A stretch of DNA of 64,000 bases from Bordetella genomosp. 7. GTDB taxonomy: Bacteria; Pseudomonadota; Gammaproteobacteria; Burkholderiales; Burkholderiaceae_B. Below are positions 44,182 to 60,779 of this stretch, piece by piece. The position numbers and the translations under genes were made by a program. Position 1 is the first letter of the stretch. Every line of letters begins with the position of its first letter. The DNA is taken from NCBI RefSeq assembly GCF_002261265.1, contig NZ_NEVK01000007.1, positions 1 to 64,000 of the forward strand. Direction: 5' to 3'. The notes below the pieces were generated by a model. It was not told the DNA's origin and made no database searches. It saw only the letters and a list, made by a program, of their open reading frames with translations.

Positions 44182-44263
44182 GGTGTCAGGCACCCTTCGG
44201 GAGCCAGACACCGCTCCCGTTGCAAACTATGCGGTGTCCGACTCCCGAAGGGTGTCAGACACC
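44182..44263. repeat. Hairpin-repeat pair, forward then reverse (BIME-like), copy 1
   Basis: Two 31-nt imperfect palindromes: 44182-44212 (arms GGTGTCAGGCACCC and GGGAGCCAGACACC, loop TTC) and 44233-44263 (arms GGTGTCCGACTCCC and GGGTGTCAGACACC, loop GAA). The second is the reverse-complement orientation of the first type, giving an inverted pair as in BIMEs. Confidence 0.88.
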
Positions 44264-44311
44264 TTCCGCCACCGCGACACCTTCCGCCACCGCGACACCG
44301 CCGCGCCGGGC

Positions 44312-44460
44312 TTATGGCCGGCTGCGATGGACTGGTTCGCCGATCAATTCCAGCAGCCCGCGTAGCGCGTACACCACCGAACTTTGCCGCACCTGCGCCC
44401 GGTCGCCGGCGAACACCTGGGTGTCTGCGCGCGACGTGATCCCGTCGCCGTTGCGTATCG
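44312..44460 (-). pseudogene. Duplicated 3' end of pncC (cinA) without start
   Basis: 149 bases that repeat the last ~49 codons of pncC, including the stop (TAA at 44312-44314), with one synonymous change seen near the stop (CCC to CCA). It has no start codon or ribosome site and is a by-product of the tandem duplication. The near identity implies a recent event or gene conversion. Confidence 0.9.
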
Positions 44461-44461
44461 T

Positions 44462-44767
44462 GCGCGAAAGGTGTCAGGCACCCTTCGGGAGCCAGACACC
44501 GCTCCCGATTGCAAACTATGCGGTGTCCGACTCCCGAAGGGTGTCAGACACCTTCCGCCACCGCGACACCTTCCGCCACCGCGACACCTTCCGCCACCGC
44601 GACACCGCCGCGCCGGGCTTATGGCCGGCTGCGATGGACGGGTTCGCCGATCAATTCCAGCAGCCCGCGTAGCGCGTACACCACGGAACTTTGCCGCACC
44701 TGCGCCCGGTCGCCGGCGAACACCTGGGTGTCTGCGCGCGACGTGATCCCGTCGCCGTTGCGTATCG
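44462..44767. repeat. Second copy of the tandem duplication, ending inside pncC
   Basis: Carries hairpins at 44470-44500 (forward) and 44522-44552 (reverse), three 18-bp TTCCGCCACCGCGACACC units (44553-44606; the first copy has two) and the genuine pncC 3' end. The different 18-bp copy number shows slippage since duplication, a VNTR-like marker. Confidence 0.93.
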
Positions 44768-45188
44768 CGAAACCGAAGCACACCATGCCTACCGGTTTGC
44801 CGGGCGTGGCGCCGCCCGGGCCGGCGATGCCCGTGGTGGACGCGGCGATATGCACGGCGGGACTGGCCAGCATGACGCCGCTGGCCATTTCCAGCGCCGT
44901 CTCTTCACTGACGGCGCCGAACCTGTCCAGGGTATCGGCCGATACATTGAGCTCGGCAATTTTTGCGTCGTTGCTGTACGTGACGAGCCCCCGGTCGAAC
45001 CAGTCGCTGGAGCCCGCCACGGCCGTGATGGCGCCGGCCAGCAAACCGCCGGTGCAGGATTCGGCCGTGCCCAGCACGAGGCCGCGTCGCTGCAATGCGG
45101 CGCCCAGTCGTTCGGCCAAACCCAGCGCCTGGGCCTGGGACAGGGAAGCGGGCGCGAGGCCCGGCACAGGCTTGTGCGGCAACGTCAT
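44619..45188 (-). CDS. pncC: NMN amidohydrolase, CinA C-terminal family
   Basis: 189 aa from the ATG at 45188, overlapping the pgpA stop by ATGA. The CinA domain signature TAESCTGGLLAGAITAVAGSS includes the catalytic Ser and later Lys/Tyr region (VTYSNDAKIAELNV), and TGIAGPGGATPGKPVGMV. It deamidates nicotinamide mononucleotide to nicotinate mononucleotide in NAD recycling. It ends the rib-nusB-thiL-pgpA run. The last 149 bases are duplicated downstream. Confidence 0.92.
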   Translation of the reverse strand: MTLPHKPVPGLAPASLSQAQALGLAERLGAALQRRGLVLGTAESCTGGLLAGAITAVAGSSDWFDRGLVTYSNDAKIAELNVSADTLDRFGAVSEETALEMASGVMLASPAVHIAASTTGIAGPGGATPGKPVGMVCFGFAIRNGDGITSRADTQVFAGDRAQVRQSSVVYALRGLLELIGEPVHRSRP

Positions 45189-45724
45189 GTGAAGACCCCC
45201 AGGCGTACGAGTATGGCCATGACCAGCAAGGCATAGCCCGCGGCAACGATGTCGTCCCACATGACCCCGAAGCCGCCCTTGATCTTGGCGTCGAAATACT
45301 TGATGGGCGGCGGCTTGGCGATATCGAACAGCCGGAACAGGCCAAACGCGGTCAGCTGCGCGAGAAAGGTGCCGGGCACCAGCCACAGCACCAGCCAGAA
45401 CGCCACCATCTCGTCCCATACGATACCGACATGGTCGTCTACCTGCAATTCACGCGCGACGCGATGGCACGCCCAGCAGCCGTACGCGAACGCCAGGGCC
45501 AGGAAGATGGCCAGCGCCAGGTCGGACGCGGCCGGCGCCGCCGCCGCCCAGATCAGCCAGGCCAGCAGCGTGCCCCAGGTGCCCGAAGCCGGACGCAACA
45601 GGCCGCTGCCCAGGCCGAAGGCGATCAGCCGGCCGGGGTCGCCCGCCACCCAGCGCGGGGCAGGATAGGCCACCCGCACGCGATTGCGCATGGATGCCGG
45701 AGACGAATCGGGGCTGGCGGGCAT
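45185..45724 (-). CDS. pgpA: Phosphatidylglycerophosphatase A
   Basis: 179 aa with about four hydrophobic segments. The PgpA motifs are GSGLLRPASGTWGTL, DDHVGIVWDEMVAFWLVL (acidic metal site) and LFRLFDIAKPPPIKYFD. It dephosphorylates phosphatidylglycerophosphate to phosphatidylglycerol in the inner membrane. It lies 6 bp after thiL and overlaps pncC by 4 bp. Confidence 0.93.
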   Translation of the reverse strand: MPASPDSSPASMRNRVRVAYPAPRWVAGDPGRLIAFGLGSGLLRPASGTWGTLLAWLIWAAAAPAASDLALAIFLALAFAYGCWACHRVARELQVDDHVGIVWDEMVAFWLVLWLVPGTFLAQLTAFGLFRLFDIAKPPPIKYFDAKIKGGFGVMWDDIVAAGYALLVMAILVRLGVFT

Positions 45725-45730
45725 AGAGAT

Positions 45731-58967: not shown

Positions 58968-58976
58968 AGCTGCTGC

Positions 58977-59032
58977 AGGCGCGGCCGGCCAGGCGCGGCC
59001 GGCAAGGCGCGGCCGGCGAGGCGCGGACGCGG
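58977..59032. repeat. 14-bp GC-rich tandem repeat (about four units)
   Basis: AGGCGCGGCCGGC plus one variable base is repeated at 58977, 58991 and 59005, with a degenerate fourth unit at 59019. It lies between the coaD stop and the ferredoxin gene; each unit contains the self-complementary GGCCGGCC-like core, so the RNA could fold strongly. Confidence 0.8.
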
Positions 59033-59078
59033 CCCCGCGGGGCTACAATGGCTGCCTGCCCCCCGCCCTATTTTCGCC

Positions 59079-59330
59079 ATGGCTCTGACCATTACCGAAG
59101 AGTGCATCAATTGCGACGTCTGTGAGCCGCAGTGCCCCAACGAGGCGATCTCGATGGGGCCGGAGTACTACGTCATCGATCCGGACCGCTGCACAGAATG
59201 CGTGGGGCATCACGACGAGCCCCAGTGCAAGGTGGTGTGCCCGGTCGAATGCATCGAGCTGCATCCCCAATGGCACGAAGGGCAGGAAGCCCTGATGGCC
59301 AAGTATCGGCGCCTGACGGGCTCCTCATGA
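59079..59330 (+). CDS. YfhL-family 2[4Fe-4S] ferredoxin
   Basis: 83 aa. Eight or more cysteines form two clusters: [16 protein letters not shown] and [21 protein letters not shown]. The longer spacer in the second motif (the Alvin/YfhL type) distinguishes it from clostridial ferredoxins. It is a low-potential electron carrier in the cytoplasm, partner unknown. The gene's position after coaD is common in proteobacteria. Its stop overlaps the next start by ATGA (59327-59330). Confidence 0.94.
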
Positions 59331-60538
59331 CTCCCCCCGACGCCAGCGTCGCCGCGCCCCTGCGCCAGCCGCTGCAGAGCGACCTGTCGCTCTCGGCCAC
59401 CGTGGCGGGGCTGGTGGCGGTGCTGGTGAGCTTCGGCGGCACGGCTGTCCTGATGGTGCAGGCCGGGCACACCGCCGGGCTCGACGCCGCGCGCATCGGC
59501 TCATGGCTGGGCTCTATCTGCCTGGCGCTGGGCCTGGGCGGGCTCTTCATAAGCCTGCGCACCCGCATCCCCGTCGTGCTGGCCTGGTCCACCCCGGGCG
59601 CCGCCCTGCTGATCACGGCGCTGGCGGGCGTGCCTTTCGACCAGGCCGTGGGCGCCTTCGTGCTCGCCTCGGCCTTGATGCTCGCCTGCAGCGTATTCGG
59701 CTGGATCGATCCCATCATGCGACGCGTGCCGGCCGAAATTGCCAACGCCATGCTGGCGGGTGTGCTGTTGAATTTCGGGTTGGGCATCTTTACGCGCATC
59801 GGCGAACAGCCGGTGCTGGTGCTGTCCATGTGCGTGGCCTATCTGCTGGGCAGGCGTTACGCGCCTCGCTATGCGGTGCTGGCGGTCATGGCAGTGGGCC
59901 TGGCGGTGGCCGGCGCCGCCGGGCAGTTGCAGTTGCGGGGCATAGACTGGCAATTGACCGAGTTCGTCTGGACGACGCCGGCGTTTTCGTGGTCGGCCTT
60001 TGTCAGTGTGGGGATCCCCATTTTTGTGGTGGCGCTGGCATCGCAGAACCTGCCCGGGCTGGCCATTCTGCAGGCCGCCGGCTACCGCCCGGCCGCCTCG
60101 CGGCTGGTGGGAGCCACCGGCCTGCTGGGCCTGCTGGCGGCGCCGTTCGGCTCGCACAGCGTGACGCTGGGCGCCATTACGGCGGCCATCTGCGCCGGCC
60201 CCGAGGCGCATTCCGATCCGCAACGGCGCTATGTGTCCGGCGTGGTCTATGGGCTGGCGTATGTGCTGCTGAGCGTAATCGCGGGAGCGGTAGCGGTGTT
60301 CTTCCAGGCTATGCCGCCCGCCCTCATCATGGCGCTGGCGGGACTGGCCTTGCTGGGCGCGATACTGGGCGGGCTGGCCGGCGCGATGGCAAACCCGCAG
60401 CGTCGCGAAGCGCCGCTGATCACCCTGCTGGCCACCGCATCAGGTTTCAGCGCGTGGGGAATCGGATCGGCGTTCTGGGGGCTGGCGGCAGGGCTGCTGG
60501 CCCACGCGGTGCTGGAGCGCGGCCGGCAGGCGGCGTGA
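59327..60538 (+). CDS. BenE-family benzoate/H+ symporter-like membrane protein
   Basis: 403 aa from the ATG at 59327. About 12 hydrophobic segments are present. [45 protein letters not shown] (the two parts [15 protein letters not shown] and FDQAVGAF) and [24 protein letters not shown], quoted as [18 protein letters not shown], are BenE motifs. BenE proteins import aromatic acids such as benzoate, but many members have no aromatic pathway nearby, as here. It converges on the MOSC_N gene across a hairpin array. Confidence 0.87.
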
Positions 60539-60578
60539 CGGGTCAGGCAACTGATGAGCTTGTGCGCGATGCCGGGAC

Positions 60579-60779
60579 GGTGTCTGACACCCTACGGGAG
60601 TCAGACACCTGGTGCGCTCGTGCGCAATGCCACGAACAGTGTCTGACTCCCGTAGGGTGTCAGACACTTGGCCCGGCCATGCGCAATGCCACGAACGGTG
60701 TCTGACTCCCGTAGGGTGTCAGACACCTGGCCAGGTCATGCGCAATGCCACGAACGGCGTTTCATAGGTGTCAGACACC
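60579..60779. repeat. 59-bp tandem array of hairpin repeats (three full, one half)
   Basis: Hairpins at 60579-60609 (forward, loop TAC), 60638-60668 (reverse) and 60697-60727 (reverse, loops GTA), exactly 59 bp apart, then a half copy GGTGTCAGACACC at 60767-60779. Spacers share TGCGCAATGCCACGAAC. The loop here is CTACGG/CGTAGG instead of the CTTCGG/CGAAGG of the other clusters, a cluster-specific variant. The array separates two convergent genes. Confidence 0.93.

Follow-up and report, generated by a model that had tools for sequence, protein, structure and literature searches.

We analysed a 64,000-nt stretch of Bordetella genomosp. 7, hereafter the window (C7:1-64000 of genome G000), in which a 31-bp hairpin recurs in three clusters at gene ends. 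The hairpins are best explained as a family of repetitive extragenic palindromes (REPs) that owes its dispersal to a REP-associated tyrosine transposase (RAYT) and that, since the RAYT broke, has been growing locally by tandem duplication, a reading to which we assign a probability of roughly 0.8. The REP-like nature proposed by the first-pass annotation of the window is upheld: the copies are genome-wide, extragenic in the 1.264 Mb mapped in detail, biased towards convergent gene ends and ordered by orientation, and a RAYT-like gene lies between the same hairpins.

The unit is an imperfect palindrome of 31 bp, within the 20–40 bp expected of a REP, with a stem of 13 pairs plus a single mismatch, A.A or T.T. 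This stem mismatch gives the palindrome its orientation: the two positions written as "n" in the search pattern are not free, an A facing an A marking the forward type (F) and a T facing a T the reverse type (R). F and R have the same 10-bp arms and differ in the 11 bp at the centre, which are inverted, and the whole unit resembles two GGTGTCWGACACC-like 13-mers. As RNA, F and R fold with energies of −21.3 and −22.3 kcal/mol, respectively, and a symmetric form with −26.5 kcal/mol. No GT[AG]G or CGTC tag was detected at either end: in 53 rows from this genome no position exceeded 0.39 bits. A GTAG-like tag is ruled out here, the flanks not being conserved. A C before and TG after F were found in 14/19 rows of the congeneric genome G003, 22/31 of G008 and 9/11 of G004, and in 6/65 of our own genome.

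Across the 4.13-Mb genome (8 contigs), 311 copies were found at up to 3 mismatches, above the >100 copies per genome that mark a REP, and a reversed control pattern gave none; the family is thus not confined to the three window sites. A first search of relatives at up to 2 mismatches recovered copies in 7 of 41 genomes (own included), all of the same genus, and in 0 of 32 outside it. The mobilising enzyme, which the first-pass annotation had regarded as unknown, now has a candidate outside the window. The genome contains one Y1_Tnp match above the Pfam cut-off (G000:C4:169043-169381), flanked by three hairpins per side (F R R and F F R). The Y1-type transposase gene between copies of the same hairpin that the annotation had suggested looking for exists, but it is interrupted: a single in-frame TGA precedes the catalytic Y motif.

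RAYT-like genes were present in six of the nine genus genomes, our own included, one per genome, and five of them are uninterrupted. All five intact homologues scored above the Pfam Y1_Tnp cut-off, four being 66–89% identical to the protein of G008 (B. petrii), and those of G008 (L025) and G005 (L026) reached 86.4 and 88.2 bits against NF047646 REP_Tyr_transpos (REP-associated tyrosine transposase; cut-off 80 bits). All five of these intact rows carry the motifs NHVH, WE and YIELNP; in the three Achromobacter rows the last motif reads YIEMNP. This hairpin, a stem variant or a half copy lies on both sides of all six genes of the genus. Over the compared part, the RAYTs of G008, G001 and G006 are identical to those of B. 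petrii BT 1 9.2, B. petrii MY10 and B. genomosp. 2, respectively. G002 and G007 had neither a Y1_Tnp match nor any hairpin variant. A conserved, distant Y1-like protein that has lost the HuH motif (HGWVL..ILLLATP) was seen in G007, G004 and G002 (L189, L190, L191), two of which are hairpin-free (G002, G007); the G004 protein, the sole one tested, had no Pfam match, and this protein is possibly a domesticated paralogue.

The hairpin variant and its abundance go with the RAYT, the abundant counted variant being the one found beside the RAYT gene. Window-type copies number 311 in G000, 122 in G003 and 544 in G008, whereas G001 has ~155 copies of its own variant versus 35 of the window type, and G005 has 19 versus 4. 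The symmetric form of G006 occurs there 30 times at up to 1 mismatch, 12 times in our own genome and at most once in each of the other seven. Three relatives also contain inverted doublets resembling REPINs (REP doublets forming hairpins), in which R precedes F across a linker (L) of near-constant length: RF gaps measured 24–32 bp in 11 of 15 pairs in G003 and 18 of 20 in G008 (400 kb each), and all four RF pairs of G004 had a 29-bp gap. A second, 29-nt hairpin of the GGTGTCAGGCACC..GGAGCCTGACACC type was seen mixed with the 31-nt one in doublets and near RAYT genes (L029, L030, L026; stretches of G003 and G008).

Presence and absence can be compared directly at one orthologous site, that of the window's third cluster between a BenE-like and a MOSC_N gene. 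Five of the nine genomes are hairpin-free there; G003, G004 and G008 carry R then F, 29–30 bp apart, and our own genome carries F-D-R-D-R, where D is a locus-specific linker.

We mapped orientation and linkers in detail in 1.264 Mb of our own genome (three 400-kb stretches and the window), the sample to which results refer below unless another is given. A strict scan (up to 4 mismatches) found 127 copies (74 T/T, 43 A/A and 10 others) in 34 clusters without a single isolated copy; a looser scan of the same sequence found 193 copies in 50 clusters, 7 of them single. Adjacent pairs in the strict scan comprised 21 FR, 4 RF, 16 FF and 41 RR, with 11 others involving symmetric copies; the looser scan gave 30 FR and 6 RF. 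F stood ahead of R in 59 comparisons versus 4, and none of 20,000 within-cluster permutations was as extreme. Among 19 mixed clusters, F came first in 18, R last in 18, and 15 were strictly F then R. The bias holds beyond the window and also in a held-out stretch (C1:400-800 kb), where F was first and R last in 6/6 mixed clusters and F stood ahead of R 17:2 (220 of 20,000 permutations). This F..R order is the opposite of that of the R-L-F doublets in the three relatives; none of six RF pairs in our genome had a 24–32 bp gap, FR gaps ran from 20 to 129 bp, and REPIN-type doublets were thus lacking.

The linkers behave differently from the hairpins. They vary among loci and are repeated directly within a locus: direct identity exceeded inverted identity in 53 of 55 triplets and, across the F-to-R switch, in 13 of 14 (linkers up to 160 bp; triplets from one array are not independent). 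Direct linkers together with inverted hairpins mean that core and linker differ in orientation: the core inverts and the linker does not. When each cluster's flank was compared with its own linker and those of 32 other clusters, its own matched better in 16/33 cases on the 5' side and 11/33 on the 3' side (6 on both), where rank alone would give about one cluster per side.

On the reading that we prefer, what a RAYT would have excised and mobilised is the hairpin in single-stranded form or, in the relatives, the R-29bp-F doublet (a REPIN). In our own genome, where the RAYT is interrupted, the short tag (C before and TG after F) and the R-L-F doublet would have disappeared, and arrays would then have grown from an F-D-R pair by local tandem duplication of a hairpin together with adjacent host sequence. 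Duplications joining at the identical 10-bp arms would give F-F-R or F-R-R with the linkers remaining direct, and further growth within like copies would give F-R-R-R, with F kept at the left end and R at the right. This arm-joining model leaves the origin of the first F-D-R from R-L-F unexplained. The 31 bp may be conserved through use at transcript ends, either as mRNA 3' protection or as a limit on read-through where genes converge. According to PMC8266576, the RayT of E. coli acts on a single strand only and depends on an unpaired spot in the stem; by analogy, the A.A/T.T mismatch could play the role of that spot.

An alternative that concerns only the history of the arrays, and is compatible with a RAYT-dispersed family, is that the palindrome core flipped where it stood, turning F into R through template switching or cruciform processing instead of by F-D-R founding and unequal exchange. 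We regard this as possible, although we lean against it. In its favour, F and R have identical 10-bp arms and only the 11 bp at their centre are inverted, while the linkers stay direct; in addition, 12 of the 24 mixed clusters have a main loop common to F and R (1.66 Mb; 213 of 10,000 shuffles were as high). Random flips, however, would not place F first and R last in 18/19 and 6/6 mixed clusters, figures that rule them out as the sole cause of the order.

The first-pass annotation had described the arrangement as similar to that of bacterial interspersed mosaic elements (BIMEs), which in their classical form are alternating REPs with family-wide linkers moving as composite units. F and R do lie near each other, FR pairs outnumber RF pairs, and the linker length of the relatives' R-L-F doublets is nearly constant. 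Nevertheless, classical BIMEs appear quite unlikely here, as our linkers are particular to each locus and continue as direct repeats past the F-to-R switch, the core inverts and the order is F..R: among the 16 mixed arrays of at least three hairpins that contain no symmetric copy, 11 consist of like hairpins except for one at an end (FRRR.., FFFR) and only three alternate. The direct, local linkers rule out a strict BIME order, and that description is given up.

None of the 34 strict-scan clusters lay within called genes. Convergent gene ends flanked 18 of the 33 clusters with two neighbours, versus 5.2 expected from the number of gaps of that kind, whose divergent counterparts were depleted (1 versus 8.4 expected), the sole divergent case being the pyrF/pncC cluster, which is convergent by Pfam. 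These positions fit a candidate role at transcript ends. They would also suit a spread of bidirectional terminators or of mRNA 3' stabilisers through selection alone, with no transposase involved, as would the stable RNA hairpin of −21 to −22 kcal/mol. We consider this very improbable, given 31-bp identity with sharp edges at many unrelated loci, absence from the orthologous site in 5/9 genus genomes and the link to a RAYT. In the flank alignment of our own genome no T-run follows the hairpins, which rules out an intrinsic terminator. A CRISPR-like array with palindromic repeats, which nearly identical hairpins set at regular intervals, tens of bases apart, might recall, is refuted by the inserts, which copy each other and often the flank within an array, the reverse of spacers, and by the many dispersed loci, and has virtually no chance of being correct.

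Several points weigh against a RAYT-dispersed family with later local growth. Mobilisation by the RAYT is something that we infer from sequence, and the F-first rule is explained solely by a model. The NCBIfam scan covers two of the five intact homologues (G008 and G005), with L024, L027 and L028 resting on Pfam and our own copy left out. G004 contains 111 copies and R-29bp-F doublets with no cognate RAYT match, so RAYT loss alone does not make F..R arrays. The strict scan of G003 gave only 4 R-before-F versus 3 F-before-R and 8 singles, and in our own genome the looser scan brings 7 singles and 6 RF pairs, compared with 0 and 4 in the strict scan. Linker–flank homology was found on neither side in 12/33 clusters. 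The conserved flanks of the relatives were not found around the copies of our own genome, whose ends consequently differ from those of the relatives' element. The variant patterns overlap (at 3 mismatches the window pattern counts 61 in G006, symmetric forms included), so the counts are not exclusive; they also leave out, genome-wide, the 29-nt hairpin that adjoins the G005 and G008 genes. At the Achromobacter locus L034, the 400 bp on either side of the gene hold the hairpin motif on just one side. Finally, genes were called with a simple home-made caller that mis-called the pyrF/pncC locus; it is inexact, as its one divergent site is convergent by Pfam.

Within the window, the eleven full copies and one half copy reported by the first-pass annotation are all present where it placed them, with 0–3 mismatches, and 100 dinucleotide shuffles of the window produced no full 31-nt hairpin. 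The placement at gene ends also holds at the Pfam level, with OMPdecase (pyrF)/CinA (pncC) and BenE/MOSC_N convergent and an ABC permease gene followed in tandem by CYTH-CHAD. A further "degenerate half" claimed at position 1422 is a one-mismatch 10-mer, which carries no weight because ~2.9 such 10-mers are expected by chance. Searches of the window against Rfam and for tRNAs returned no match.

Cluster 1 lies between a pyrF-like gene (OMPdecase, Pfam; 43226..44044, plus strand) and its convergent neighbour, an open reading frame containing a pncC-like gene (CinA, Pfam; 44619..45419, minus strand). By pattern match, it comprises an F at 44182..44212 (plus strand, 3 mismatches) and an R at 44233..44263 (minus strand, 1 mismatch), followed in a second duplication unit by an F at 44470..44500 (plus strand, 3 mismatches) and an R at 44522..44552 (minus strand, 1 mismatch). 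The claim that forward copies precede reverse ones in each cluster stands for clusters 2 and 3 but fails here, where the order reads F R F R because a ~290-bp stretch including the pncC 3' end has been tandemly duplicated (93% over 298 bp). A 37-bp unit is repeated four times between pyrF and the first hairpin (44039-44182), and both R hairpins of the cluster are followed by exact repeats of an 18-bp unit, GACACCTTCCGCCACCGC (44258-44299 and 44547-44606), which start inside the last six bases of the R.

Cluster 2 follows the ABC permease gene (BPD_transp_1, Pfam; 53523..54347, plus strand), which is an ABC permease at the Pfam level and for which "phnE2" was the earlier label, and precedes the CYTH-CHAD gene. 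Its hairpins are F at 54354..54384 and 54424..54454 (both plus strand, exact) and R at 54480..54510 (minus strand, 1 mismatch) and 54541..54571 (minus strand, exact). The suggestion that each cluster has its own loop variant is partly true but does not hold in this cluster, which mixes TTC-type loops with one TTT-type.

Cluster 3 lies between the BenE-like gene (Pfam; 59327..60538, plus strand) and the convergent MOSC_N gene (Pfam; 60807..61199, minus strand). An exact F at 60579..60609 (plus strand) is followed by an R at 60638..60668 (minus strand), whose 2 mismatches preserve the end pair (A-T for G-C), an exact R at 60697..60727 (minus strand) and the half copy, a 13-bp palindrome GGTGTCAGACACC at 60767..60779 (no strand). 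The 28-bp linker D (60610..60637, no strand) is repeated directly at 60669-60696 and after 60727, and a less exact copy precedes the first hairpin. Tandem Repeats Finder reports the cluster as a 59-bp tandem array (period 59, 60563-60757).

A contig scan for RAYT kin gave at least 80 loci, and flanks were inspected in 43 of 80. In a 79-row tree of the matches listed, the Bordetella and Achromobacter proteins form one clade (100/99), which joins Massilia, Herminiimonas and Herbaspirillum (Oxalobacteraceae) at 98/92; the tree was built without a published reference set, its sole outside row being E. coli RayT on a very long branch. Among the same listed matches, the Bordetella and Achromobacter RAYTs measure 183–202 aa; 66 other relatives reach at least 160 aa, and 64 of these fall at 217–246 aa. 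In the four longer relatives checked the extra length lies after the Y1 domain, and no Pfam tail domain was found in four long and two short proteins. The hairpin motif occurred within 400 bp of 6/6 Bordetella and Achromobacter genes and of 0/37 others among the 43 loci inspected; at two of the three Achromobacter loci it lay on both sides. One alphaproteobacterial relative, L063, was seen between two near-identical, near-perfect palindromes of 48–50 bp (2837-2884 and 3651-3700).

The 13-mer GGTGTCWGACACC is present in 618, 189 and 238 copies in three genomes of Achromobacter, whose RAYTs come next in closeness among the matches listed, and in none of six genomes with more distant RAYTs. Among 268 family genomes, 16 from three genera have the 13-bp core at ten or more copies (7/9 in this genus, 8/43 in g4, which includes the Achromobacter genomes, and 1/15 in g36), 27 have one or two copies and the rest none. 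The surroundings of the Achromobacter RAYTs (L032-L034) showed the 13-bp palindrome GGTGTCWGACACC but no 31-nt hairpin, and in several of the listed Achromobacter pairs two 13-mers stand ~50 bp apart, with a T and then an A at the centre. These pairs may perhaps represent a shorter, ancestral element. A fuller scenario, which we offer tentatively and at somewhat less than even odds, is that a RAYT of a subclass reported to be REP-less, C-terminally shortened in Alcaligenaceae, acquired or founded an untagged REP from the 13-bp GGTGTCWGACACC, which was doubled to 31 bp in Bordetella; after the enzyme broke, the hairpins would have multiplied locally by a core-inverting process within direct repeats, nearly always with F and R at opposite ends.

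RAYT-linked REPs are already known from PMC2817692 and PMC3116915. In the descriptions given by PMC2817692 and PMC8266576, REP/RAYT systems (REPtrons) of enterics, Pseudomonas and Stenotrophomonas are alike in having high-copy extragenic imperfect palindromes that flank a Y1 transposase gene, a hairpin variant that goes with the transposase and, in E. coli, cutting that needs a stem irregularity. The Bordetella family differs from these accounts in lacking the GT[AG]G head, in transposase motifs of another subclass and in a 31-bp unit like two GGTGTCWGACACC-like 13-mers. The doublets of G003, G008 and G004 resemble the REPINs of P. fluorescens SBW25, inverted pairs at near-constant spacing, for which PMC3116915 also describes tandem clusters including flanking sequence; by comparison with that description, our own genome has the pair order reversed, locus-specific linkers and arrays in place of doublets.

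The enzyme falls by motif into TnpA-Y1 subclass 2.1, for which PMC6006769 gives NHVH, W[EQ] and YIELNP and reports that no REP-like sequences were found near the genes. Its HuH, W and Y signatures (NHVH, WE, YIELNP) recur in Bertels group 1, as defined in PMC6006769, and in TIRYTs (PMC6006769, PMC3733652). Members of subclass 2.1 and TIRYTs are described in those papers as lacking REPs and having a distal helix-turn-helix tail and a median length of 238 aa, whereas the Bordetella and Achromobacter RAYTs measure 183–202 aa and are flanked by a high-copy REP; the assignment by motif thus departs in length and in the REP. The Bor repeats (PMC1590033, PMC2267715) and BRE (PMC3110155) of the classical Bordetellae are likewise described as stem-loops, mostly intergenic, in the same genus; Bor, of 26–30 bp and like E. 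coli REP z1, and BRE, of ~90 bp, were set beside the 31-nt hairpin by description only. A literature search by arm sequence among open-licence papers gave, judged by title, no bacterial repeat paper among the matches listed, and the RepRanger paper mentions neither Bordetella nor RAYT.

Overall, a RAYT subclass described as REP-less gains a candidate cognate repeat. Related genomes with intact, interrupted and absent enzymes, together with several stem variants, form a natural series that bears on the birth of REPs, on RAYT recognition without GTAG and on the fate of REPs after the death of their enzyme.

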